The translations under genes were made by a program, and so were the position numbers. Shown here piece by piece: positions 1 through 11,698 of a stretch of DNA of 11,698 bases. Numbering within the stretch: the first letter of the stretch is position 1; each line of letters opens with the position of its first letter. The notes under the pieces were generated by a model that was not told the DNA's origin, ran no database searches, and saw only the letters and a program-made list of their open reading frames with translations. The stretch is from Calditrichaceae bacterium. GTDB lineage: Bacteria; Calditrichota; Calditrichia; Calditrichales; Calditrichaceae. Where the stretch lies: positions 1-11,698 of the forward strand of contig JAUXGF010000027.1 of assembly GCA_030622395.1 (NCBI GenBank), given 5' to 3'.

Positions 1-161
1 CTATAAACAGTTCGTCCCGCTGGGACTAAAGAATTATCCGGCATAACGTTGATGAACCATAGTTGGATTTATGTTGAAAACCTCTCTATGCCATGGTACA
101 AAAGGGATTGCAGAATCGGTTAATAATTTTCTTAACAATTTTTCACGAATTTAACTCATAA
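1..161. other. Gene-free left edge with one short palindrome
   Basis: No convincing gene is visible here. A perfect palindrome, GTCCC-GCT-GGGAC, lies at 14-26 and matches the hairpin type found at 1906-1918 and 1975-1988, so this edge probably belongs to the same dispersed repeat family. A 27-codon open frame at 73-156 on the plus strand has no recognisable features and I do not call it a gene. Confidence 0.6.
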
Positions 162-328
162 TTAGTGTCTGAACGAAAACTAGCCCAAACTGTCATTTTC
201 CCACGGGGACGCCTTGCGGCGCGAGCGGAGCGTCCCGATAATCGGGATTTAACGTTATAAATATTGAAGTTACAGATTTCTCCCTTCGGTCGAAATGACA
301 AAAAAGCGCTTTTTCGGTCAGACACTAA
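162..328. mobile_element. MITE-like element with 18-bp terminal inverted repeats
   Basis: The ends are TTAGTGTCTGAACGAAAA (162-179) and TTTTCGGTCAGACACTAA (311-328), inverse complements at 17 of 18 positions. A second nested pair, TGTCATTT (191-198) and AAATGACA (293-300), lies inside. The centre holds a GC-rich inverted repeat, GGGACGC (206-212) with GCGTCCC (230-236), and a competing hairpin TCCCGAT-A-ATCGGGA (233-247). TA dinucleotides at the outer edges (163-164, 326-327) could be a TA target duplication as in IS630/Tc1-type elements, but they also fit inside the repeat. There is no transposase. It reads open on the minus strand for about 60 codons, which I take as repeat translation. The size and nested palindromy suggest a non-autonomous element or a folded RNA; only the inverted repeats are directly seen. 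Confidence 0.6.
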
Positions 329-462
329 GTAACTAAACGAAGATGTTCAGGAATTAATAACCAGACGCCAAGCAAAGTACCGGAAATTTTTTTTGCCAAT
401 AACTCTCTGGTATCGCGCTCAATGTCAGTTATATCTATAAAAAATTGCTGAATTATCGGGAT
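325..462 (-). pseudogene. Short coding remnant, truncated at a repeat element
   Basis: The minus-strand frame carries a plausible protein stretch of about 45 residues with an amphipathic start and the hydrophobic segment SGTLLGVWLLIPEHLRL, then stops within four codons at the edge of the MITE-like element. The same frame extends upstream to 552, but 463-552 looks like repeat sequence (a hairpin and a GGGGTTACC-type stretch) rather than real coding. From memory the segment resembles small conserved hypothetical proteins that continue past HLRL, which would mean the repeat insertion cut the gene, but I could not verify this. It may instead be chance. Confidence 0.3.
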
Positions 463-520
463 GCCTTCTTTGTGCCTGTGGTGTGGCTTGGGTTGTAAAA
501 ATGCAAACCCACCCTTGCTT

Positions 521-612
521 GCATCCCGATACTTCGGGGTAACCCCTCTCAAGAGGGGAATTGTTCCAAATCCCCCTCTATTTTTTAAAGAGAGGGGGAT
601 TTAGGGGGTGAG
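521..612. repeat. Cluster of three hairpins overlapping the galE 3' end
   Basis: Three stem-loops lie in tandem. The first is CCCGA-TACT-TCGGG at 525-538. The second is CCCCTC-TCAA-GAGGGG at 543-558. The third has a perfect 10-bp stem, ATCCCCCTCT (570-579) with AGAGGGGGAT (591-600), around an A/T-rich loop. The third spans the galE stop codon. It could slow or end transcription, but on the minus strand it is followed by AUUUGGAAC rather than a U tract, so I treat it as a dispersed repeat rather than a canonical terminator. Confidence 0.65.
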
Positions 613-1595
613 TTGACAGACTTCATATAAACATCAGACATTGTTTTAAAAATAGTTTCTAAGTCCGAATACTGAGCTTCCCAGTTCAAAAGCTTTTTTG
701 CCAAATCACAACTGGCTACTAGCTCCGGCGGATCGCCGGGTCTTCTTTCTGTAATGTCATAAGAAATTATTTTTCCGGTAACCTCTTCGGCTTTCCCGAT
801 AACTTCCAATACGGAATGACCAATCCCTGTGCCTAAATTGACCAGCAGATTTTCTTCTTTTTCAATTATATACTTCATGGCTAAAACATGAGCCGAAGCC
901 AGATCGTTTACATGGATGTAGTCGCGGATACAAGTTCCATCCGCTGTTTTATAATCATTGCCGTATACCTGCATTTTATCCCGAATACCAGCCGCAGTTT
1001 CCATTACAATGGGCGAGAGATTAGCCGGATTTTTTTCCTTGCCTTTTATCTTTCCGTTAATGTCATAACCTGTGGCGTTAAAATAGCGCAGCGCGGCATA
1101 TTTAATGTCCGTTAATTTGCTATACCACTTTAGATTCTCTTCAATAGCCAGTTTTGTATATCCATAATAGTTCTCCGGATTTACGGGATGTTTTTCATCA
1201 ATCGGCAAATATTGCGGGCTGCCGTAAACCGCGGCTGAAGACGAAAAAATAAAATTATTAACCCCGTTTTTTAGCATAGCGTTCAACAGGTTTATTGTAC
1301 CGTAAATATTATTAACCGCGTATTTTCCCGGATCAATCATGGACTCGCCTACTGCTTTCCAGGCGGCGAAGTGAAAAACAGCGTCAATATTTTTAGCAAA
1401 GGCTTTTTCAAGATCAACTGTATTCAATATATCGCCTTTGATAACTTCTGAGCGGGGATCAATATTTTCACGTAAACCCAAAGAGAAATTATCAAATACA
1501 AAAACCTGGTATCCCTGGTCGCATAACAATTGTACTAAATGACTGCCAATGTATCCGGCGCCTCCGGTAACTAAAATTCTTTTATTACTATTCAT
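585..1595 (-). CDS. galE: UDP-glucose 4-epimerase
   Basis: This cytoplasmic NAD-dependent short-chain dehydrogenase/reductase interconverts UDP-glucose and UDP-galactose (Leloir pathway) and supplies UDP-galactose for surface polysaccharide. The 336 residues match the family's usual 330-340. Residues 11-17 form the GxxGxxG dinucleotide fold (GGAGYIG). Ser119, Tyr144 and Lys148 (YYGYTK) form the catalytic triad with the spacing of E. coli GalE. RDYIHVNDLA (224-233) and RPGDPPE (285-291) are typical of the extended SDR epimerases. The ATG at 1595 is preceded by a strong AAGGAGG. The last eight residues, SPPKSPSL, and the TAA stop are encoded by the repeat hairpin, so the natural C-terminus probably ended near residue 328. 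The active site is unaffected. The 595-bp repeat-filled gap upstream argues against co-transcription with the secreted cluster. A UDP-N-acetylglucosamine epimerase activity cannot be excluded. Confidence 0.95.
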   Translation of the reverse strand: MNSNKRILVTGGAGYIGSHLVQLLCDQGYQVFVFDNFSLGLRENIDPRSEVIKGDILNTVDLEKAFAKNIDAVFHFAAWKAVGESMIDPGKYAVNNIYGTINLLNAMLKNGVNNFIFSSSAAVYGSPQYLPIDEKHPVNPENYYGYTKLAIEENLKWYSKLTDIKYAALRYFNATGYDINGKIKGKEKNPANLSPIVMETAAGIRDKMQVYGNDYKTADGTCIRDYIHVNDLASAHVLAMKYIIEKEENLLVNLGTGIGHSVLEVIGKAEEVTGKIISYDITERRPGDPPELVASCDLAKKLLNWEAQYSDLETIFKTMSDVYMKSVNSPPKSPSL

Positions 1596-1607
1596 CTGAT
1601 AATTCGT

Positions 1608-1614
1608 CCTCCTT
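1608..1614 (-). promoter_or_regulatory. galE: Ribosome-binding site of galE
   Basis: AAGGAGG on the minus strand lies 12 nt before the ATG at 1595. It is a near-perfect Shine-Dalgarno sequence with a slightly long spacer, and it fixes the start. Confidence 0.7.
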
Positions 1615-1625
1615 ATTTATTTTTA

Positions 1626-2131
1626 GGTTCTATGTCGATTATTTGTATGGGTAAGATTTGTTTTCATTAGTTATGATTTATGTATGTATAAAGCCTTTAG
1701 AAAAAATTAGTATTAATTTTTAAACAGCCCCAAAGGGGCATTATATCAAAACGCAGGGCAACGCCCTGTGAATTAAAATGATACTCTAACATAAGCCCCA
1801 ACGGGGCGTTATAATAATCGGCCTGCATTATTAATAACGCCATTTTCCCACAAGGGATCCCGTTCCGTAAGAACGCCTGTGGAACTGATCAGCTGTTTAT
1901 CAATCGTCCCGATGGGACTCATATTGACTATTAGATCTTTTCCCCACCAATAAATTGGTGGGCTATTTTCGATCGTCCCTTATGGGACTATATTCCAGAA
2001 ATATTTTTAAATAACTTATATACCAAACAATTTGTTCGCTGCTTAAGGTGAGGGCTATCTGATAAATCGGGATCGAAATGAAGTTGCTATTTTTTATTAT
2101 TATATTTACCCACACAAAACGACATAGAGCC
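1626..2131. repeat. 506-bp block of palindromes bounded by imperfect inverted repeats
   Basis: This fills most of the 595-bp gap between galE and the CotH gene and contains no gene. The left boundary has GGTTCTATGTCG (1626-1637) followed by ATTTGTATGGGTAA (1641-1654). The right boundary, read on the minus strand from 2131, has GGCTCTATGTCG followed directly by TTTTGTGTGGGTAA (to 2106). That is 23 of 26 matching positions with one 3-nt gap. Between them are seven or more short hairpins: GCCCC-AAC-GGGGC types at 1727-1739 and 1795-1807, CAGGGC-AAC-GCCCTG at 1754-1768, CGTTC...GAACG at 1861-1875 inside a larger imperfect stem 1845-1883, GTCCC-N-GGGAC types at 1906-1918 and 1975-1988, and CCCACCAAT-AA-ATTGGTGGG at 1943-1962. 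No transposase is present. It may be a composite of REP-like repeats, a non-autonomous element, or a structured RNA. Confidence 0.6.
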
Positions 2132-2190
2132 ATTTTTAATTGTATAACTGCCGAATAACATTTTTTTTCACACGTATCGGAAATATAACA
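2132..2190. other. Downstream flank of the CotH gene
   Basis: This short A/T-rich stretch lies 3' of the CotH reading frame on the minus strand. It contains an eight-base A run on that strand but no stem before it, so I see no intrinsic terminator for the cluster. Confidence 0.4.
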
Positions 2191-3618
2191 CTATCTAATT
2201 AAAATCATTTTTTTTGATTGGATATTATCATTTGTTTTCATTTCATATATGTAAATCCCGCTGGCTACATTTCTACCTAAAGAATCTTTGCCGTCCCAGC
2301 TAACCTTATAATTTCCGGCTGGCTGTTTACTATGAACCAGTATACGAAGTCTCTCGCCTAAAATATTATATATAGACAATTCCACTTTACTTTTAGCAGG
2401 AAGCTGATAGGTAATAGTTGTTGCCGGATTAAAAGGATTGGGATAGTTTTGCTCTAAAGAAAAAACATCCGGTATATATTCTAAGTTTTTGTCAATCGCC
2501 GTAAACACTGTATTTTCTGAACCGGGCGTCCCGCCATTCACTGATGAGGCAGCCCAGTTTTGAGCAAGACTATTATCCGACTGCGGATTTTTTAATTCTA
2601 ATGTGGGACCGTTACCGTTGGGTTCCGTGGGCCAGGGCGCCTGTTCATCAAAAGTAAGTGCATCGATAAGTATTCCATCGCAGTCATACAAGCGGATTAA
2701 TTCACCGTCACTGCTTAAGCCAAAATCAAAATCACCCAGGCAATTATCAACTGTTGGGAAAAACTGTTTAAATGCAACCTTATCCCGGCATATTACTAAG
2801 TGATCCTTTCCATCAAGTATGGTATTAGATGGGAGAATAAAAGGACTGTGGCTGTCGTTATCATCAATAAAATACCAATTGGAAATATCAACCGCCGTGC
2901 TGCCGCTATTGTACAGTTCAACCCAATCTTCTGTGTCAAGTTCAGCGCCGGATTTATAATTAATTTCATTGATAACCACTTTGCCTGCTGCCGCACTGTC
3001 ATACTCAAATATTGCTGTTACGGTCTGGTTATCAACAATATTGAATGTTATTGTCTGTGAATCAGGGATGCTATCCCCTTCCCATCGAACAAATCGAAAA
3101 CCTGTTTTTGGTAAAGCGATTAATTGAATGGGGATCTGGATGAAATATTTTCCATTCCAGGGATAATCACTAATAATCTGGCTGTTAATTTTAATAGAGC
3201 CGCTGTTTTCCGGAGACACGGTTAAATTGATTGTTCCCATACCGCCGTCAATTAAACCGAATTCTTCCATGATATGCCGGCGCACGGAATCTCCGCGGCT
3301 TAAAGCATAGTTAAGCGTCACCTGAATCGAATTGTACCACTCATCCATTGAATCAATTGATTTACCCAGCCACCAGGGACCTTCGAAGGTATATTGCCAG
3401 CGTTCGATATGACGAGGCATCTCAGAATGAATACCTGCTTTCATCTCCTCTATCAGAGTGGTAACCCTTTGCGGCTTAAAGGTAATATTCAGATGGTCGG
3501 CATTGCGGTTAATAAATTCATTGCGGTAAGATTCATTTTCCAATAGTTTAAAAAACAATAAAGTGGTTCCGTTCTGCTGATCGCGCATTTCATCAAACAT
3601 ATTCGAACCTTCCCACAA
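2191..3618 (-). CDS. CotH protein, C-terminal part after frameshift, with T9SS domain
   Basis: This 475-residue frame is the continuation of the CotH protein encoded upstream at 3489-5798, displaced by one base. Its first codon here is TTG (3618); an in-frame ATG follows at residue 7. Residues 1-120 are the rest of the CotH kinase domain: FFKLLENESYRNEFINRNAD, then EEMKAGIHSEMPRHIERW, typical of the family's C-terminal half. Residues ~128-206 look like a bacterial repeat (InlB-B-like) domain, ending GFRFVRWEGD...TVTAIFE. Residues ~213-368 form a second lamin-tail domain (VVINEINYKS...DWVELYN). Residues ~385-475 are the type IX secretion C-terminal domain (NYPNPFNP to SKKMILIR). The intact C-terminal domain suggests the frameshift is recent or an assembly error. 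As a separate protein it would lack a signal peptide and could not be exported. Confidence 0.85.
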   Translation of the reverse strand: MWEGSNMFDEMRDQQNGTTLLFFKLLENESYRNEFINRNADHLNITFKPQRVTTLIEEMKAGIHSEMPRHIERWQYTFEGPWWLGKSIDSMDEWYNSIQVTLNYALSRGDSVRRHIMEEFGLIDGGMGTINLTVSPENSGSIKINSQIISDYPWNGKYFIQIPIQLIALPKTGFRFVRWEGDSIPDSQTITFNIVDNQTVTAIFEYDSAAAGKVVINEINYKSGAELDTEDWVELYNSGSTAVDISNWYFIDDNDSHSPFILPSNTILDGKDHLVICRDKVAFKQFFPTVDNCLGDFDFGLSSDGELIRLYDCDGILIDALTFDEQAPWPTEPNGNGPTLELKNPQSDNSLAQNWAASSVNGGTPGSENTVFTAIDKNLEYIPDVFSLEQNYPNPFNPATTITYQLPAKSKVELSIYNILGERLRILVHSKQPAGNYKVSWDGKDSLGRNVASGIYIYEMKTNDNIQSKKMILIR

Positions 3619-5798
3619 ATGCCCGCATGAAACCCGTAATCATTATCAAAAAGCAGCCATTTAAATTTTCCGCCCGCGGTTCTGGGCCGCCAGCATTTAA
3701 TGTTATTCCAGGGCCAGTCCGGATTGCCATAAAACATCACTGCAATGCAATAATCCATAAAATTATAGACGTCCATAAGGGTCTGCACATAAGCATAATT
3801 GGCGGAATCGCTTAAATCACTATTCTCGACAAAATCAAGTAAAATGCGATACTGCACATCATCTCCATGGATGATCATTGTATCTCTTTCCACAAAATCA
3901 ATATTATCGGGATCAACGCCTCGGTTAGAGGCAAGATAGTGCTCGTTCATTTTCTCGCGTATATTATGTATGCCCCAGCATTGCCCGTTCAGATAGACCA
4001 GCGCCGGCCGGTATTCCATATAATCGAGATCTGTATGAATAACTAATTTAGACATTAGAGCGTCACGAAAGAAAGTTCTGCCCCAATCCTGCCCCGAATT
4101 ACGCAATATAATGGCTTTATACTGCTGAATATTTTTGTCAGGGAAAATGGGATAATTGATACGATCCTGGCCGTAACGGCCCCGGGCAAACACAGCAAGA
4201 GATTTTTGCGGATAAAGACGGCTCCACGAACCGAATATCTTAACCCCGGCGTTAAGTGCAAATCCGCGGGCGCCGTCCTTCTCAAAGAATTCCACATGAA
4301 TAGGACGTTCCCAATCTTCCCAGAAATTTGATCCCCAGTAAGGGTAATTCACCGTATCCGCGTCGTCACCATACACATAAATACCAATTTCATTATCGAA
4401 AAAATTAGCCGGATCGGTGGACAGAGCTACAACCGGTAATTCAAAACTTTGATTGACAAAATAAGTATTGGTAATCGTTTTTCCCGGCAGCATCCCGTTT
4501 GCGAAAACACGTGCCCGCACCACCATGATGCTGTCAATCGAAATTGGATAGCTATAAACCTCAGAAGTATCCGACGGTTCACTGCCATCCAAAGTATAAT
4601 AGATATTAATGTTTTCACCTTCTGCGGTCAGCGCTAATTGGAACGGGGTGTCATAAAAACCACCATCGTGGGAAAAGTTTACATCCGGGGCAAATTCCTG
4701 GTAACCGTTTGTGACATTTGCGGCACCCGGCGTGGGCTCATCAAAATAGTACCACTGGCTGCCGCCGTCCGGCTGTCTGCCGAAAGAGATATCCGCGGGG
4801 ATGGCCCCAAATTCAACAGAGTCGATAGTCTGCCCCTGCGGATCAGTTATAATGAGTTCTTCCCCGGATGAACTGATCTTGAAGGTTGCGTGTAACTCCT
4901 GTTGTTTTGGAAAATTTAGAACGGGCGAAGCCCCGCGCACATCCTGTGGTATGTAATTCATTTCCAATGTCAGAAACGGTATTAAAGTCAGGTCGGTTGA
5001 ATAAAGTTGATCATTATGTACCTGAATGGCTAAAACATTATTGCCGTTTTGCAAAATGGATTGAATATTTTCAATCTCAAACTCTTCCGGGGATCCGCCG
5101 CTGTACATTTGAGCGTCGTGATCCGAATCCGCGAATTGATCATAAAACGGCGGCGTACCCACCGTACCAATATTGGCGCGGGCAATTTCGACATTATTAA
5201 GATAAGCCACAAATGCATCGTCATAATCGATATGCAAAAAACAATTAGACACTTCATCCGGTTTTTCCACATAAAATTTTTTACGAATAAAAACCGAAAC
5301 AGGGCCGGGCTGGAAAGGATCCTCCGGCCCCACATCAGTGGAATCATCTCCATCGCCATAACCAAATCCACTGGGGCCTTCCGGCCAGGACGAAGCGATA
5401 AAATCAAGCGTGCGCCAGTTTGCCGGCGGTTCTTCCGTACCGATAAAATAGCGCCAGATATCGCCCCAATCGATAATGGTTTCATAATGTACTGCAGGTA
5501 TCTGCGATTCCTTATGCGAAGCAAAAACGATTAAGAAACTGTCCGGTTCAATAACAACCGGCGGGAAAGTCCATTCAAATGGAGTAGAATTATTATCAGA
5601 CAGTCCATAATTGGTTAAGTCAAGCGTAGTGGTACCCGCATTATAAATTTCCAGCCAATCCGGGTATTCACCGTCCTTATCGGCTAAAGTCGATACGTTG
5701 GACGACATAATCTCGTTTATGAACAATTCCTGGCTAAACGTATTAATTGTCATAGCCGACAGCAGAAGCGCTGTCATTATTATTTTTGATATTGTCAT
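3489..5798 (-). CDS. CotH-kinase/lamin-tail protein, N-terminal part, frameshifted near 3622
   Basis: It begins with a signal peptide (1-22, predicted mature end QELF). CotH domains are atypical kinase-fold proteins; B. subtilis CotH phosphorylates spore-coat proteins, but the substrate here is unknown. A lamin-tail domain starts at ~23 (INEIMSSN, DWLEIYN), is interrupted at ~98 by a jelly-roll segment to ~298, and resumes at ~300-362 (SSSGEELIITDPQG...DEPTPGAAN). Residues ~370-447 are a chitobiase-C-like domain (YYTLDGSEP). The CotH kinase domain runs from ~453, with LVYLNGQCWGIHNIREKMN (600-618) and LLFDNDYGF (715-723), whose Asp residues are the likely metal ligands. Correct reading ends at about His724-Ala725; one extra G in the GGG run at 3622-3624 would join HAG to HLWEGSNMF in the other frame and give about 1,202 residues. 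The last ~44 residues of this frame are out-of-frame sequence. The ATG overlaps the upstream stop (ATGA), so translation is probably coupled; only a weak Shine-Dalgarno is seen. Confidence 0.88.
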   Translation of the reverse strand: MTISKIIMTALLLSAMTINTFSQELFINEIMSSNVSTLADKDGEYPDWLEIYNAGTTTLDLTNYGLSDNNSTPFEWTFPPVVIEPDSFLIVFASHKESQIPAVHYETIIDWGDIWRYFIGTEEPPANWRTLDFIASSWPEGPSGFGYGDGDDSTDVGPEDPFQPGPVSVFIRKKFYVEKPDEVSNCFLHIDYDDAFVAYLNNVEIARANIGTVGTPPFYDQFADSDHDAQMYSGGSPEEFEIENIQSILQNGNNVLAIQVHNDQLYSTDLTLIPFLTLEMNYIPQDVRGASPVLNFPKQQELHATFKISSSGEELIITDPQGQTIDSVEFGAIPADISFGRQPDGGSQWYYFDEPTPGAANVTNGYQEFAPDVNFSHDGGFYDTPFQLALTAEGENINIYYTLDGSEPSDTSEVYSYPISIDSIMVVRARVFANGMLPGKTITNTYFVNQSFELPVVALSTDPANFFDNEIGIYVYGDDADTVNYPYWGSNFWEDWERPIHVEFFEKDGARGFALNAGVKIFGSWSRLYPQKSLAVFARGRYGQDRINYPIFPDKNIQQYKAIILRNSGQDWGRTFFRDALMSKLVIHTDLDYMEYRPALVYLNGQCWGIHNIREKMNEHYLASNRGVDPDNIDFVERDTMIIHGDDVQYRILLDFVENSDLSDSANYAYVQTLMDVYNFMDYCIAVMFYGNPDWPWNNIKCWRPRTAGGKFKWLLFDNDYGFHAGICGKVRICLMKCAISRTEPLYCFLNYWKMNLTAMNLLTAMPTI

Positions 5799-8110
5799 TT
5801 TATTAGAACCATCTTCTTTGATATCATAGATTTACTTGACGTCAAACGGTAGATATAAATTCCGCTGGGCGCCTTTATTCCCTGATCATTCTTACCTTCC
5901 CAAATAATTTTATGCTGACCTGTAAATTGATGCCTGTTTATTAAGGAACGAATTTTTTGTCCTAACATATTATAAATCGTTAACTCCACTTTGCCGGACG
6001 CCGGCAGACTGTAATTGGTTGTTGTTGCCGGATTAAACGGATTGGGATAATTTCCTAAATTAAAGCTTTTTGGTAAATGATTGTTATCATCTTTGGCAAT
6101 ACCCGTCTCATTTCGCGGCTTGGGAATGATAAACGGATCGCCGTTAAAAACCAGACCGTAATACCAGCCTTTTGCGTCAGTTGTAAATCCGTATTCTCCC
6201 TTGTACTGAAATGTTTTCAAGAAAGCTTCACCGTAGCTAATACCTTGTGCAAGGCAGGTATAAAAATAATCAAAGTCCGTCATACCGCCGCTGTGCGTAG
6301 TGCCTATTGTGTTTATTCCGCTCTCCGTTAGCAGCGCATATACAGCGCCGCAATTCATATCCGCTATATAGCGGCTGTTGCCGCAAGCAAAAAGATTATA
6401 AAAATTAGCGTTCGCTTCAGCTAATAAAATTTGCGTATTCGTAAAATATTCAGTGCCTGCCCCATCGTTAATTTTAAATGCATGTCCCTGCTCCCAGGAA
6501 TGAACCCAGACGTGGATCAGGCTGTAACCATCATCAAGACGGCTGCCATAATCGCTGCCTGTGGTCTGATTAATATCATAAATGGATAAATAATCGGGAT
6601 AAAGCAGACTGATATAATCATTAGCAACTTCATTGCCCCAGGTGTGCCAGTCATCATCCGGATAGGCTAAGGCTTTAAACTCCTGCCGAACACCGTTTAA
6701 ATCATGGCGGTAATCATGGCATTTTTGCAGGTATGAACAAATAACTTCACTCGGATCGCCCATTCCGCTTGTGGGGATTATTCTTCCGATAACAATTTCC
6801 GGAGCTTCGGTGTTACGCGGGAAATCATCGATATGCGTATCATAAATTCCATCCGTTCCCAGTACAAGAGAGTCACCTTCTTCTTTATAATTATCCTGCC
6901 AGGTACCGTCCAAATCCATGTAATAAATGTCTGCCGGGTATTCCTGATAATGCCATAACGAATCATCTTCATTATAGCCAGTTGCCTGATACCAGGGAAC
7001 AGGAAAATCGCCGATTAAAAGCGCTCCCTGTAATCCTTCTATAGAGCGCAGGGTATTCCTCAGAGCCTGATGATTGTCAAACTGCATGGAATAGACCACC
7101 ACTTCGGCGCCTTCATTTTCCCAGTCATTGATAGTCTTTGAAAGAGTATTTTCAATCGATGAATATAATTGGGGCTGAACAAAAATAGCCCGCACATTAT
7201 TTAAATATAATTTTTCATTAATCTCTCTCGAACGTCCGCTTACCAGATGCGTGCTTTCATCTTCGGAAAACAGGATATATCCATAGGTTTCGTTAGTATC
7301 AATTGTTATGTCGTAATAAATTGAATCAACGATATCTACGGCAATTTTATCATATTGATAGCGTGGATAATTTAAAGCCAATGTATCATTAAGGCATCTG
7401 CGGTAAACCGTATATTTTAATCCGGGTTTTTGATCCCATGATATTTTTAGCGCAGCCTCTTCCCTTTGCAAATAAAGGCTGTCCGGCGGCAAGGGAATAT
7501 CCATAGGCTGTAGTTGCAGGGTGGTCGGAAATCCCGCCAACAGCGGAAGACACCAGATTTCATCTGCATGCTCGCCCTGTTCAAAGGTATAGGTTTCATT
7601 ATAGCAGGAAAATATAATTTTGAATGAATCTCCGACTGCAACCTCAGGATTAGAAAAATTTCCTAATTCGATTCCATACCAACCCATCCCGCTGATATTA
7701 GCATCTCCAATCGCCCAGCGGGGAGAATCATCCGTAAGAATCTTATTATCATTTCCGTTAAGCAAAACAATGAAGCTGGCGACAGGAGGCAAATCCTCGC
7801 AAAAAGAATTATCATTATGTCTTACGTATCCTTTATAATAGGCGTAATCTTCTCCAAAAACAAAGGAATCCGCTTTAGCGCATTTTTGCATTTGTGAATG
7901 GTATTTTATTTCACCGCCGATCTCTTTATTCTCAGTATCCCAGCGCGCTTTCCATTCTTTGTACGTCATTGGTTTACTGCCGTCCGGCGATCGCCATTCT
8001 GTTCTCACAGGCTGAGACGACTGTCCAAAACCATTTGACGTTAACAGTAAACTGAAACTAAGGATTAAAAATACCAGACAGCATTTGTTTTTTTTATTAA
8101 TAATAGCCAT
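5795..8110 (-). CDS. Secreted gingipain-like (C25) cysteine peptidase with T9SS domain
   Basis: This is probably an exported cysteine endopeptidase of the caspase/gingipain fold, 771 residues. Residues 1-29 are a signal peptide (hydrophobic core 10-24, predicted mature end QSSQ). Residues ~88-170 form a module shared with the neighbouring glycosidase (ILTDDSPRW, GWYGIELGNFSNP). Residues ~200-297 look like Fn3. The peptidase region runs ~305-665: ALLIGDFPVPWY (363-374), YPADIYYMDLDG (391-402), a His segment IHVWVHSWEQGH (532-543) and a Cys segment LFACGNSR (573-580). His537 and Cys576 are the likely catalytic dyad by the family's pattern; the usual His-Gly is His-Ser here, so activity is less certain. 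Residues ~682-771 are the type IX secretion C-terminal domain. I chose the ATG at 8110 over the one at 8125 because GGGAG lies 8 nt before it; the upstream ATG lacks a site. It follows the glycosidase stop by a few bases and overlaps the CotH start. Confidence 0.85.
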   Translation of the reverse strand: MAIINKKNKCCLVFLILSFSLLLTSNGFGQSSQPVRTEWRSPDGSKPMTYKEWKARWDTENKEIGGEIKYHSQMQKCAKADSFVFGEDYAYYKGYVRHNDNSFCEDLPPVASFIVLLNGNDNKILTDDSPRWAIGDANISGMGWYGIELGNFSNPEVAVGDSFKIIFSCYNETYTFEQGEHADEIWCLPLLAGFPTTLQLQPMDIPLPPDSLYLQREEAALKISWDQKPGLKYTVYRRCLNDTLALNYPRYQYDKIAVDIVDSIYYDITIDTNETYGYILFSEDESTHLVSGRSREINEKLYLNNVRAIFVQPQLYSSIENTLSKTINDWENEGAEVVVYSMQFDNHQALRNTLRSIEGLQGALLIGDFPVPWYQATGYNEDDSLWHYQEYPADIYYMDLDGTWQDNYKEEGDSLVLGTDGIYDTHIDDFPRNTEAPEIVIGRIIPTSGMGDPSEVICSYLQKCHDYRHDLNGVRQEFKALAYPDDDWHTWGNEVANDYISLLYPDYLSIYDINQTTGSDYGSRLDDGYSLIHVWVHSWEQGHAFKINDGAGTEYFTNTQILLAEANANFYNLFACGNSRYIADMNCGAVYALLTESGINTIGTTHSGGMTDFDYFYTCLAQGISYGEAFLKTFQYKGEYGFTTDAKGWYYGLVFNGDPFIIPKPRNETGIAKDDNNHLPKSFNLGNYPNPFNPATTTNYSLPASGKVELTIYNMLGQKIRSLINRHQFTGQHKIIWEGKNDQGIKAPSGIYIYRLTSSKSMISKKMVLIK

Positions 8111-8118
8111 TATAAGAA

Positions 8119-8123
8119 CTCCC
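8119..8123 (-). promoter_or_regulatory. Ribosome-binding site that decides the peptidase start
   Basis: GGGAG on the minus strand lies 8 nt before the ATG at 8110 and partly overlaps the in-frame ATG at 8125. It sits just past the TAA of the glycosidase gene (8127-8129), so ribosomes finishing that gene could reinitiate here. Confidence 0.65.
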
Positions 8124-8126
8124 ATT

Positions 8127-11100
8127 TTATCTGATAAGCAGCATCTTTTTTGAATTAGTATAATCCCCCGCTGTTATTTTATATATATAAATTCCTCCGG
8201 CTGCGTCAATCCCCCTGTCATCTCTTCCGTCCCACTTAATTTCATGTATGCCGGACTTCATTACGTTGTTCGCCAATGTTCGCACTTTTTGTCCTAAAAT
8301 ATTGAATACGTTAATTTTAACATTCACTGACCGCGGCAGTTCAAATCTGATAGCCGTTGAGGGGTTAAAGGGATTAGGATAATTTTGTTTGAGAAGAACA
8401 GTCTCGGGCGTCTCCTGCAAATCAACATCCGGCAGACCTGTTTCCAATTCATTTAAATCGATAAGCATACGCGCCGCGATTCCTGTCCAGATATATGTTT
8501 TATGATGACCTGCCCATTGATCATCCGGGCTGTATAATTCCCATAAATTATGATCATTCTTTAATTGCTCAATAACAGCGGATAACACTTTATATGCTAA
8601 TTGTTTTGCCTGATAATAATAGCCATAATTAATCAATCCTCTAAAAATCAGATACTGCCACTGAACCCAAACCGGACCGTTCCAGTAGCCTTTGGGATTA
8701 TAGTAGCCGTCATCAGCCGCCAATGAAGGAATTCCATAAACGCGCCAAAATTTATCAGGATCGGTTAATACCTGAACAAGTTTTTCGGCTTGCTCCTCAG
8801 TTGCGCTGTTTGCCCATAGCGGGAGAAAACCAATAATTTCCCGCCGTTTCAGATCATTAGCAGAATTGTAGGTAAAGCCATGATCGGTTTTATCAACATG
8901 ATAAAAGAAATTGGTCTGCTCATCCCAAAAGGTATTATTGATTGCTTCCGTGCGTTTAGCCGCTTCGTTTGTCCAGTAGTCGTATTCACTCGTATTTCCC
9001 AACTCCAAAGCCATTTGAGCTAATGAATGCGCTTCACTTACTAACATTACATTCAAATCCATACATTCAAAATTACTGGGCCAGCCGACCTCCCAGACAG
9101 CCACACATCCGTCGCGCAAACTTTCTAATACAGCATGGGCGCCCCATTCGCAGAGACTATCTCCATCTGCGTTCCGGTTATCCAGCCAGTATTGATAAAA
9201 TTTTGATCCCGATTGATAGGCGTCCTGCAAAAACACCGTATCTTGTGTAATTTTATAAATCTCCCAATTTTCCCAATTGAACAAGGGAGCTGATGTTGTA
9301 TATTGACCATACCAATAAATTGTTTCATTCAAATAAGGACCGGTTCGATAATTAATATACCCGTCCGTCCATTGTCGTTCCATATAAACGCGTTGGGAAT
9401 TCATTGCGCTTTGTCCGTCCATAAAAGCGTAAGCAAGCATTACCAGGCTTTCATGGAAAACCTGACCGCCGTGTCCCCAGCCCCAGGTCGGCTCTCGTGA
9501 GAAAACATAATAATCGTAGGAGCATTCCCCTTCCGGCGGCATCATACACTGCCGCGCTAATGAAAAAGCGCTCCAGTACAGCATTTCATAATCAGGGTTA
9601 GAAAATGTTAAATTTGGTATATGACTATAAATTCGTTCGGCATCCTCTACAAGGGGCTGTAAATCAATAGACGTCGAATTCCTACATTCTGCGATCAGTT
9701 CATTCACGTTTGAACCGGCTTCGGCAACGCCTCTGATTATACGCAATTGAGAACTCTGAGCTGATGGAATTGATAAAGTTTTTTGCATAGCTGTGATTTT
9801 AACATCAGCCGCAGGAATTGTATTATATAATTGTACATTTAAAACATCGCTGAAAAAGGCAATGTTTTGACCGCTTCCCCGGCCTAATTCTTTTGAATGA
9901 CCGCTAAACCTGCCGCTGTCATCCCTGGCGATAATTATGTAATTATATAAACTGTCCGGCTCTAATCCTGTATCCAGATATCCGCCGCTTTCGATCCCTT
10001 CTGCAATGCGGTCAAATCGTCCTTCGGGCTCTCCGCAGCGTCTATAAATACTGTAAAAACAATTTTCTTCCTGCTGCCATAAAAGCTCGGCGCTGGCGTA
10101 ATTTTGACTAAAAGAAATCACAGCATTGGCTGGAACAGGCGGATGTTCTTCTTCTGTCAATTGTATATCAGTGTGTACGCCTCCACTTGAGGGCAGCGCC
10201 GGAATTAATCCCTTGCCTATCCCCTGCTGTTCAGTAACAAGGCAATTGAAAATAACAGTAAAAGAATCATCGGCGGCTATAGCGGGATTCTGAAAATTTC
10301 CCAATTCACATCCCTGCCAGCCATTGCCGGGAATGTTAGGATCTGTATCTCCCCATTTCGGCGCATCTTCCGTTAAAATCTCAATATCGCTGTTGTTGTG
10401 TAATACAATCATTTGGGCGTCAGGAGGAGCGTGTAAACAGGATGTGCCGTCTTTATGATTAACTGTTCCCCATTCCACGCAGTAATTACTTCCCCGCTTA
10501 CTAATCATTGAAAAAGAAGAATCGGTCAAATAAGTATATGCGCCAAAATCATCTGCTTCCGAATCAATAATATAAACATTGATTAAATCTTCCTGATAAG
10601 GCACGCCGTGAGAGGTAGTCCAGCTATCCGGTCTCTCTTTATGTTGAAAAATAAAACCGTCGTATTCAGGAGTAATTATTGATACATCTGTAATTTCATC
10701 AGTCTGGTGATATAAAAAAGGATAGACGGTTAACTCCGCATCAAAGCCGCTCTCATTTGTGATGTTAATATCCTGTATTGCAATTCTTGAACTGTAAACA
10801 TCAAAAAATATTTCGACGCGTATACCTTCAAAAGGATAATAATAATATTTAACCAAATCACTGTATGATGTTGTAATAAGCGGTTCCGTATAAAATTCAT
10901 TTAAGTAATAGCGGAACTCTCCATTTAATTTAAACCCAAGGCAGAGGCTTCCGCCATTGTCAGTTTCAAAATCAATCCCGTCTTGCAAATCATACCATTT
11001 GAATGTATAACCTTCATCAACAATAAATTCTGACCGGTTAAGCGGGGCGGCATAAGTTGTATAGATCGGATCATCCTTTCCTGCTTCGAGATTGGATAGA

Positions 11101-11174
11101 TAGGGCTGACTATGCAGCGTTCCCGCTAAAATCAAAATTATAAAACAGGTAATAAAATGATATTTAATGCACAT
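8127..11174 (-). CDS. Secreted GH63-like (alpha/alpha)6 glycosidase with T9SS domain
   Basis: This is a probable inverting exo-glycosidase of the GH63/trehalase-like superfamily, 1,015 residues. Residues 1-22 are a signal peptide (predicted mature end QPYLS). Residues ~30-165 look like the beta-sandwich N-domain. Residues ~228-312 are the module shared with the peptidase (ILTEDAPKW, GWQGCELGNFQNP), followed by an Fn3-like segment at ~347-430 (YSIYRRC). The catalytic barrel runs ~505-912: WGWGHGG and FHESL (564-577), LESLRDG (683-689, Asp688 a candidate acid), YWNGPVWVQWQYLIFRGL (830-847) and LWELYSPDDQW (877-887, Glu879 a candidate base), all fitting the fold. Residues ~925-1015 are the type IX secretion C-terminal domain. 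The substrate cannot be read from sequence; alpha-glucosides or alpha-mannosides are the family's usual ones. The ATG at 11174 is preceded by GGAG and beats a TTG at 11189. It is the first gene of the cluster. Confidence 0.82.
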   Translation of the reverse strand: MCIKYHFITCFIILILAGTLHSQPYLSNLEAGKDDPIYTTYAAPLNRSEFIVDEGYTFKWYDLQDGIDFETDNGGSLCLGFKLNGEFRYYLNEFYTEPLITTSYSDLVKYYYYPFEGIRVEIFFDVYSSRIAIQDINITNESGFDAELTVYPFLYHQTDEITDVSIITPEYDGFIFQHKERPDSWTTSHGVPYQEDLINVYIIDSEADDFGAYTYLTDSSFSMISKRGSNYCVEWGTVNHKDGTSCLHAPPDAQMIVLHNNSDIEILTEDAPKWGDTDPNIPGNGWQGCELGNFQNPAIAADDSFTVIFNCLVTEQQGIGKGLIPALPSSGGVHTDIQLTEEEHPPVPANAVISFSQNYASAELLWQQEENCFYSIYRRCGEPEGRFDRIAEGIESGGYLDTGLEPDSLYNYIIIARDDSGRFSGHSKELGRGSGQNIAFFSDVLNVQLYNTIPAADVKITAMQKTLSIPSAQSSQLRIIRGVAEAGSNVNELIAECRNSTSIDLQPLVEDAERIYSHIPNLTFSNPDYEMLYWSAFSLARQCMMPPEGECSYDYYVFSREPTWGWGHGGQVFHESLVMLAYAFMDGQSAMNSQRVYMERQWTDGYINYRTGPYLNETIYWYGQYTTSAPLFNWENWEIYKITQDTVFLQDAYQSGSKFYQYWLDNRNADGDSLCEWGAHAVLESLRDGCVAVWEVGWPSNFECMDLNVMLVSEAHSLAQMALELGNTSEYDYWTNEAAKRTEAINNTFWDEQTNFFYHVDKTDHGFTYNSANDLKRREIIGFLPLWANSATEEQAEKLVQVLTDPDKFWRVYGIPSLAADDGYYNPKGYWNGPVWVQWQYLIFRGLINYGYYYQAKQLAYKVLSAVIEQLKNDHNLWELYSPDDQWAGHHKTYIWTGIAARMLIDLNELETGLPDVDLQETPETVLLKQNYPNPFNPSTAIRFELPRSVNVKINVFNILGQKVRTLANNVMKSGIHEIKWDGRDDRGIDAAGGIYIYKITAGDYTNSKKMLLIR

Positions 11175-11179
11175 TTTAA

Positions 11180-11183
11180 CTCC
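11180..11183 (-). promoter_or_regulatory. Ribosome-binding site of the glycosidase gene
   Basis: GGAG on the minus strand lies 5 nt before the ATG at 11174. It decides this start over the in-frame TTG at 11189, which would place the site inside the coding sequence. Confidence 0.6.
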
Positions 11184-11212
11184 ATTCAAAAATACATTTA
11201 AAACCAGAATTT

Positions 11213-11247
11213 GGAATTGGGAACTTGTAACTTGTAACTTGGAATTC
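11213..11247 (-). repeat. Degenerate 7-bp tandem repeat, reverse orientation
   Basis: Five consecutive heptads on the plus strand read GGAATTG, GGAACTT, GTAACTT, GTAACTT, GGAATTC. Their complement matches the AATTCC-type heptads at 11243-11293 and 11489-11544, so this is an inverted copy of the same tract. Confidence 0.65.
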
Positions 11248-11293
11248 CTTTAGTTCATAATTACCAATTCCCATTTTCTGCTTTCCAATTTCC
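11243..11293 (+). repeat. Degenerate 7-bp tandem repeat, forward orientation
   Basis: Heptads AATTCCT (11243) and AGTTCAT (11252) are followed in exact register by AATTACC, AATTCCC, ATTTTCT, GCTTTCC and AATTTCC (11259-11293). The tract ends three bases before the inverted-repeat element. Confidence 0.6.
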
Positions 11294-11296
11294 CTC

Positions 11297-11461
11297 GTAT
11301 CAGAGTTAAGCGAAGCGGTCTCTGATACGTGACGACGCTGCCTGAAATGCTTCACCCTTACCTCTGTTATTTAATATCATCGCCTGAAACGCTTCGCCCT
11401 TACGCCTGACTGAATAATTCCCATCGTGTGTATCAGAGACCGCTACGCTTAACTCTGATAC
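11297..11461. repeat. 165-bp inverted-repeat element with self-complementary ends
   Basis: Each end is a 32-bp sequence with its own 9-bp palindromic arms, GTATCAGAG...CTCTGATAC (11297-11328 and 11430-11461). The two ends are also inverse complements of each other at 31 of 32 positions, differing only in the loop (GCGAAGCGG against CCGCTACGC). The interior has a direct repeat of 26 nt (11341-11366 and 11383-11408, 22 of 26 identical, beginning CCTGAAA and containing CCCTTAC). There is no open frame of note. It could fold into a large cruciform or act as a non-autonomous mobile element. Confidence 0.7.
11341..11408. repeat. Two 26-nt direct repeats inside the inverted-repeat element
   Basis: CCTGAAATGCTTCACCC at 11341 and CCTGAAACGCTTCGCCC at 11383 begin two 26-nt units spaced 42 bp apart. 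Both carry GCTTC-CCCTTAC. Only two units are present. Confidence 0.6.
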
Positions 11462-11488
11462 AAGAAAAAGAAAAATATCCCCCTCGAA

Positions 11489-11544
11489 AATTCCAAATTC
11501 CTATTTCTTACTTCCCAATTCCTAATTCGTAATTCGTAATTAAC
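11489..11544 (+). repeat. Eight-unit degenerate 7-bp tandem repeat
   Basis: Eight heptads in exact register read AATTCCA, AATTCCT, ATTTCTT, ACTTCCC, AATTCCT, AATTCGT, AATTCGT, AATTAAC. The tract runs from the inverted-repeat element almost to the stop codon of the next gene at 11549. It resembles the short tandemly repeated heptanucleotides described in cyanobacteria in kind, not in sequence. Confidence 0.7.
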
Positions 11545-11548
11545 CACT

Positions 11549-11698
11549 TCACCGCACAGCCGGAAAAGCAGCGACTCTTAATTTTGTACAGCCATAAGGA
11601 ACTAATTCAATTTCCTCCGCAGCATGCTTGTATTTTTTAGGATACCAGTAAGGGCTGTAAGGAATCGGCCCGGTTATACCGCCGTACATTTGCCATTC
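11549..11698 (-). CDS. C-terminal fragment of a possible glycoside hydrolase (window edge)
   Basis: The last 49 codons of a gene that continues beyond the window. The frame is open to the edge and ends in TGA. It reads GPIPYSPYWYPKKY, then EEIELVPYGCTKLRVAAFP close to the stop. From memory the PYGC(T)-(K/N)-LR-(I/V)-x-x-FP ending recurs at the C-terminus of some DUF1680/GH127-type arabinofuranosidase-like enzymes, but other carbohydrate-active families may end alike, so the family call is weak. No type IX secretion domain is present, unlike the three genes downstream. A carbohydrate-active role would fit the neighbouring glycosidase and galE. Confidence 0.6.
   Translation of the reverse strand, partial: EWQMYGGITGPIPYSPYWYPKKYKHAAEEIELVPYGCTKLRVAAFPAVR

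Follow-up and report, generated by a model that had tools for sequence, protein, structure and literature searches.

Why would two adjacent genes encode enzymes of unrelated chemistry that carry the same protein module? This question is raised by contig JAUXGF010000027.1 of a Calditrichaceae bacterium (assembly GCA_030622395.1), of which positions 1 to 11,698 were analyzed (the window, 11,698 nucleotides). Its minus strand, on which all window features given below lie, encodes a GH63/MGH1-like glycosidase of 1020 residues (8127..11189) and a C25-like peptidase of 776 residues (5795..8125). The shared module is a discrete accessory unit, separable from the catalytic domain, and its first domain is, as judged from sequence and library searches, a new, undescribed beta-sandwich domain family. 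Tentatively, and with somewhat less than even confidence, the sharing is explained by a locus-specific targeting module that would bring chemically unrelated enzymes to one common target.

The two proteins had been noted, in a sequence-only reading of this DNA, to align without gaps at 35 of 62 identical positions. This observation was confirmed: the exact 62-position alignment is obtained with start codons five residues downstream, and the best of 200 shuffles gives 14 identities. In a BLASTP comparison of the two enzymes, the match widens to 78 identities over 214 positions (E = 6e-35); a sorting tail of the type IX secretion system (T9SS) forms a second, separate match. The module spans approximately 215 residues and consists of an unnamed beta-sandwich domain of approximately 120 residues followed by a fibronectin type III (Fn3)-type domain of approximately 95 residues. 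In the glycosidase, the first domain, recognized by profile match and without a family match, comprises residues 227–345 (10155..10511), and the second, aligned to the peptidase copy, comprises residues 349–436 (9882..10145). In the peptidase, the corresponding domains are residues 85–206 (7508..7873) and 209–302 (7220..7501). AlphaFold models of the peptidase module have predicted local distance difference test (pLDDT) scores of 93.4 and, for the first domain alone, 90.6, and the second domain adopts an Fn3 beta-sandwich fold in the predicted model.

The module had also been read as belonging to no named family. For the first 120 or so residues this description stands, as no family was found for them in Pfam, NCBIfam, PHROGs or the PDB sequences. 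The last 95 or so residues are a generic Fn3-type domain, and the second half of the module is therefore not new. The Pfam scan assigned no family, fn3 included, to either window copy of this second domain; in the relative from locus L005, fn3 reaches 33.6 bits (cut-off 25), with the best stretch inside the second domain. Relative to known Fn3 domains, those of the window fall below the Pfam fn3 threshold, and the domain follows the unnamed first domain in 43 aligned modules. The sequence-only reading had proposed a profile search and a structure comparison. Searched with 47 first-domain members, Pfam returned 0.033 as the best E value of any family. Because a 218-residue model gave matches dominated by the Fn3 domain, the first domain was modeled and searched alone; Foldseek then returned nothing below E = 0.001 (best 0.13). 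The nearest known candidates for its fold are prealbumin-like sandwiches (transthyretin and 5-hydroxyisourate hydrolase (HIUase), the transthyretin-like domain of carboxypeptidases N and D, teneurin TTR, CnaB and the SusC N-terminal extension); relative to them, a His-Cys-His-Cys set described below is a feature of the module family. An hhalign comparison of the first-domain profile with the CarboxypepD_reg-type domains of five TonB receptors, one from a module locus and four from related genomes, gave a probability of 0.4%. The Pfam search of the module matched no carbohydrate-binding module family, and none is prominent among the structure matches listed, which excludes nothing. A literature search of titles and abstract openings found no publication on such a module.

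The module is borne by a range of enzymes of unrelated chemistry. The window's own genome holds four copies, in the glycosidase, the peptidase, a second glycoside hydrolase (GH)-like protein and a 929-residue HExxH protein, where it lies near the N-terminus. A contig scan of genomes gave 24 module loci. In a set of 55 loci, many of them cut by contig ends and with 15 repeated loci removed, the 82 module-bearing open reading frames (ORFs) were classed by catalytic part as GH (29, plus 4 by position), metallopeptidase types MetC (18), MetD (11) and MetD2 (7), C25 (5), thioredoxin (1) and fragments (7). Protein searches yielded 177 module-bearing proteins: 65 GH, 40 MetC, 32 MetD, 21 C25, 12 MetD2, one thioredoxin and six without a class. 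The HExxH motif is present in 37 of 37 metallopeptidase-type proteins examined, and the MetC and MetD catalytic references have no significant match to each other. Four of the six unclassed proteins (P0050, P0072, P0104 and P0106) are glucose/sorbosone dehydrogenase-like, with the module fused to proteins of the PF07995/DUF7133 type. At their ends, these dehydrogenase-like proteins are matched by FlgD_ig or T9SS-tail models, although the scores of P0050 stay under the cut-offs. The thioredoxin case (L070:1878-4130) is a lipoprotein-like protein with a C-terminal ResA/TlpA-like thioredoxin domain. Its N-terminal match to CarboxypepD_reg is weak and below the cut-off, and its module lacks His19 and Cys90 (module numbering).

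Whether the module is just part of each catalytic domain can be answered directly. Three GH paralogues of 717–735 residues adjoin module-bearing GHs and retain the N-terminal and catalytic parts, and approximately 200 residues that include the module and its Fn3 domain are missing from them; the module is thus not part of the catalytic domain. In the window glycosidase, it lies between the N-terminal region and a catalytic domain at residues 585–902 (8484..9437), which matches PF22422 (E = 1.3e-40; 140.5 bits, cut-off 27) and PF03200 (38.3 bits, cut-off 22.4). In the PDB sequences, this catalytic domain matches YgjK-type GH63 glucosidases (E = 1.4e-17), with the best stretch at residues 669–888. 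The catalytic region of the peptidase comprises residues 355–640 (6206..7063, Pfam). Its direct match to PF01364 (E = 1.7e-4) reaches 21.4 bits against a cut-off of 23, and a precomputed Pfam list gives PF01364 for the window peptidase and 18 of the 19 further relatives listed. Both enzymes end in T9SS type A sorting domains (TIGR04183, 40.5 and 38.6 bits, cut-off 23). The tail of the glycosidase comprises residues 937–1016 (8142..8381; TIGR04183 at residues 937–1017, PF18962 at 26 bits against a cut-off of 27) and that of the peptidase residues 693–773 (5807..6049; Pfam and TIGR04183). The TIGR04183 tail has been reported in the Fibrobacteres–Chlorobi–Bacteroidetes (FCB) superphylum, including Calditrichaeota (PMC5317091). 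Module-bearing glycosidases occur in two lengths: 13 distinct proteins of 904–963 residues lack a T9SS-like tail and end with the catalytic domain, and 10 longer ones of 1014–1031 residues have a T9SS-like end (both by eye). The two lengths were seen in L005, L024, L026, L063, L064, L065 and other loci.

These architectures bear on the idea that the module is a prodomain or folding aid, which would hold the enzymes inactive or help them fold during export. In the architectures seen, the catalytic part comes after it, and in metallopeptidases it sits near the N-terminus, after an apparent signal peptide (by eye). In the glycosidase, however, it is internal, after an N-terminal region of approximately 225 residues, and the glycosidases that neighbor module-bearing ones manage without it. 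A single module on folds this different would also be unusual for such a role, which is accordingly considered very unlikely.

The sequence-only reading had offered recent domain shuffling in the cluster as its second suggestion. For the two window modules, this does not hold in a tree of 73 modules (profile span of at least 95 positions, length of at least 190 residues). There, the peptidase modules group in a single clade (98/93), separate from the glycosidase modules, which fall into two groups, with the thioredoxin module nested in one. Each window module is closest to modules of the same enzyme type from other genomes. Because they belong to separate, older clades, the window's two modules are not a recent local copy, and on the sequence evidence the pair diverged long ago. 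Elsewhere, exchange does appear to have occurred. The MetC, MetD and MetD2 modules interleave in the tree, MetC requiring 14 changes compared with 16.3 when shuffled, and neighbors of different catalytic type pair with each other in G023/L063 (99/81), in G189/L175 (98/90) and, more weakly, in G028; modules therefore appear to have been exchanged between adjacent metallopeptidase genes. Such local exchange (L063, L175) speaks for regarding the shared module as a neutral leftover of a recent domain duplication between two neighboring genes. Against this stand the separate peptidase clade, the grouping of the window's glycosidase module with glycosidases of other genomes and the retention of key residues across phyla, and a neutral leftover, already disfavored by the tree, is barely credible. 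A different kind of change is suggested by one pair of related peptidases, P0016 and P0018, in which 63 of 120 positions are identical in the first domain, whereas the preceding part has 80 of 90, the Fn3 domain 79 of 95 and the following part 399 of 465. These values suggest a swap or fast divergence of the first domain alone in this pair.

A conserved feature of the first domain is a set of four residues, His19, Cys25, residue 27 and Cys90, which read HCHC in 36 of 47, 56 of 78 and 188 of 233 modules in three sets. The 47-member set holds first domains with E values up to 1e-20 and a span of at least 100 residues; the other two require a span of at least 85, and the largest leaves out locus rows holding X. 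Identical sequences were counted once in all three. The row of the L060 glycosidase module in the 78-member set is unreliable because bases covering its first part are masked, and its apparent site loss is an artefact that was not counted as a loss. In the window peptidase, the residues are His103, Cys109 and Asp111 (7793..7819) and Cys174 (7604..7606); in the glycosidase, they are His245, Cys251 and His253 (10431..10457) and Cys316 (10242..10244). Position 27 is not His in 40 of 233 modules, and in 28 of these 40 it is Glu, Asp or Tyr. His19 and Cys90 are both present in 207 of the 233 modules, both absent in 14 and found singly in 12. By corrected mutual information among 7626 pairs in these modules, 19-90 ranks 26th, 19-27 45th and 27-90 83rd; 15 of the 25 pairs ranked above 19-90 fall within the ragged N-terminus. 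A tree built without the site columns requires eight changes of His19 and nine of Cys90. In the starred-branch comparison, five independent pairs differ in His19; on average, Cys90 changes in the same way in 4.7 and in the opposite way in 0.0 of them, compared with 1.4 for Cys25 and approximately 0 to 2 for the control positions listed (Phe73, Gly81, Asp82 and Leu121). Three of the four positions, 19, 27 and 90, change in concert, and Cys25 follows less. In the predicted model, His19 comes directly after strand 1, the loop that follows holds Cys25 and residue 27, and strand 5 ends with Cys90, which makes one shared pole for the four residues plausible. From conservation and covariation, the set is a putative metal site. 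A simple Cys25–Cys90 disulfide fits poorly, as Cys25 occurs without Cys90 in 17 modules, neither occurs in six and Cys90 alone in none; such a bond may form in the majority of modules. A second Cys pair is found mainly in the GH class: Cys68 accompanies Cys11 in 13 of 16 modules of the 78-member set and never occurs by itself.

The surroundings of the module genes provide a further line of evidence. At least two module genes are present in 22 of the 55 loci, and in 20 of these 22 they are of different assigned enzyme types. Recurrent neighbors, each family named from one or two representatives, are a gene pair termed c1 (20 loci), a PorV/PorQ-family gene (c2, NF033709; 19), a gene for a protein of no recognized family (c4; 9), a NicO-type permease (c5; 8) and a TonB-dependent receptor (c8; 6); further glycosidases also recur. 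The c1 genes encode paired proteins of approximately 600 residues with TLDWKxHDVG near the start and a weak T9SS-like tail (for example, L062:2064-3950); the one member scanned has no Pfam match. In the window's phylum, c1 is strongly matched in 11 of the 13 genomes that have the module and in 3 of the 27 that lack it (Fisher p = 1e-5, for genomes that are relatives and so not independent, at a cut of 570 bits chosen after the table was seen). On a contig of the window's genome, a TonB receptor and two c1 genes are found, and the contig ends there. The c1 family, with PorV-family and TonB receptor genes as neighbors, looks like a component of a polysaccharide utilization locus (PUL)-like cassette in these phyla.

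Clustering of this kind is what the main rival would predict, namely a docking module that would bind no substrate and would instead join the enzymes in one complex at the cell surface, either with each other or with a surface partner encoded in the locus, in the manner of dockerins in cellulosomes. Docking of cargo by transthyretin-like domains occurs in the spikes of type VI secretion systems. The co-occurrence of module genes in 22 loci, the recurrence of c1 and PorV-family genes and the enrichment of strong c1 in module-positive genomes all favor docking, and, as with the cellulosomal dockerin and cohesin, one module is carried by several enzymes of one organism. However, in three module-negative genomes, c1 stands beside a TonB receptor, in one of them with a PorV-family gene as well, in loci that have no module. 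The module is hence not a general partner of the c1/PorV/TonB cassette, and this partnership was down-weighted. In addition, no dockerin match was found in Pfam and no cohesin-like partner was identified, and the 13 tailless glycosidases indicate that not all module bearers would reach the surface through the T9SS. Docking is therefore regarded as unlikely on balance, with enough in its favor to remain a serious contender.

The putative metal site raises another option, metal handling, in which the His/Cys residues would buffer or sense metal for secreted metallopeptidases with a NicO-type permease as supplier. The c4 protein (for example, L138:6472-8099) has HGYxF after a likely signal peptide and is paired with the permease, which has a His-rich loop; both lie inside several module loci. 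Within the window's phylum, 3 of the 40 genomes have c4, and all three carry it in a module locus. The c4 and c5 proteins may resemble ZevA and ZevB. ZevAB has been described as a zinc binding system (PMC3872050). However, c4 is present in only 3 of the 13 module-positive genomes of the phylum, and the permease is also found in L138 and L139, whose modules lack part of the site, so that a coupling between permease and site was down-weighted. Glycosidases, moreover, would not be expected to need a metal supply. As a function of the module, metal handling is thus quite improbable.

Targeting to a common target is preferred because of the sharing across unrelated chemistries, the physical clustering and the separability of the module. 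The module would direct its enzymes to a glycoprotein-rich substrate or a surface ligand exploited by the locus, much as carbohydrate-binding modules concentrate carbohydrate-active enzymes (CAZymes). A single target made of both sugar and protein would then be attacked jointly by peptidases and glycosidases, joined in some genomes by a sugar-dehydrogenase-like protein. Zinc or another transition metal may be bound by the His-Cys-(His/Asp/Glu/Tyr)-Cys set, whose residues probably lie together at one pole of the sandwich; the metal would fix a contact loop or be part of the contact. Binding by the module is putative; we infer it, what is bound and the presence of the metal alike. Counted in favor of targeting are the presence of the module on glycosidases, C25-like peptidases, HExxH types, the thioredoxin lipoprotein and the dehydrogenase-like proteins, the conservation and partly concerted change of the His/Cys set, the first-domain divergence of P0016 and P0018, which would suit a contact domain that has been swapped or is diversifying, and the PUL-like content of some loci (TonB receptor, PorV-family protein and further glycosidases). 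The likeness to the carbohydrate-binding modules of CAZymes, one accessory module that would serve differing chemistries on one target, ends with the absence of a Pfam match and with the occurrence of this module on peptidases and oxidoreductases as well.

Several results weigh against targeting and its metal site. No ligand, and in Pfam no carbohydrate-binding family, was matched to the module, and no extracellular substrate suggests itself for the thioredoxin lipoprotein. The window and L010 peptidases have diverged to the same degree in module (63% identity) and catalytic part (64%), so that a faster pace of the first domain does not hold throughout. Retention of Cys25 in 17 of 23 modules without Cys90 is not explained by a simple four-ligand site. 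All four residues are lost in the glycosidase modules L074:3124-5850 and L180:4419-6514, which makes the site dispensable there. Finally, the starred-branch sign test has a median p of 0.0625, the lowest possible with five pairs. A more elaborate reading, which we regard as a long shot, is a metal-gated assembly tag. Here, a Zn or Ni center formed by the His-Cys-His/Asp/Glu/Tyr-Cys residues, with metal from the NicO-type permease of some loci, would shape the contact pole of a new prealbumin-like domain, and the peptidases, glycosidases and a sugar dehydrogenase of a single PUL-like locus would assemble on a shared cell-surface partner, forming a T9SS equivalent of the cellulosome that would act on glycoproteins.

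Of the 40 genomes of the window's phylum, 13 have the module, the window's own among them. In phyla around genomes known to hold it, with those genomes counted, it occurs in 8 of 82 (G064), 7 of 245 (G061) and at least 6 of 395 (G063). Module loci lie in records named Calditrichota, Neomarinimicrobiota, KSB1, Ignavibacteriae, Bacteroidota and WOR-3. A module locus (L011/L136) is also found in a record titled Archaeoglobus; as it resembles bacterial loci, this contig (L011) is likely mis-binned. In the window, the minus strand further encodes an epimerase and a CotH/LTD protein in two ORFs. The latter (2191–5798) is split between overlapping ORFs in different frames, one matching positions 1–216 of the CotH profile and the other positions 229–320, as a frameshift or assembly error would give.

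For Caldithrix abyssi, more than 150 peptidase and more than 60 glycosidase genes have been reported (PMC5317091). If the proposed explanation is true, an undescribed accessory-domain family marks loci in little-studied phyla that probably degrade glycoproteins, ties chemically unrelated enzymes to a single target and offers a sequence handle for finding such loci. The putative metal center and the exchange of modules between neighboring genes would open both mechanism and evolution to tests on small recombinant domains.

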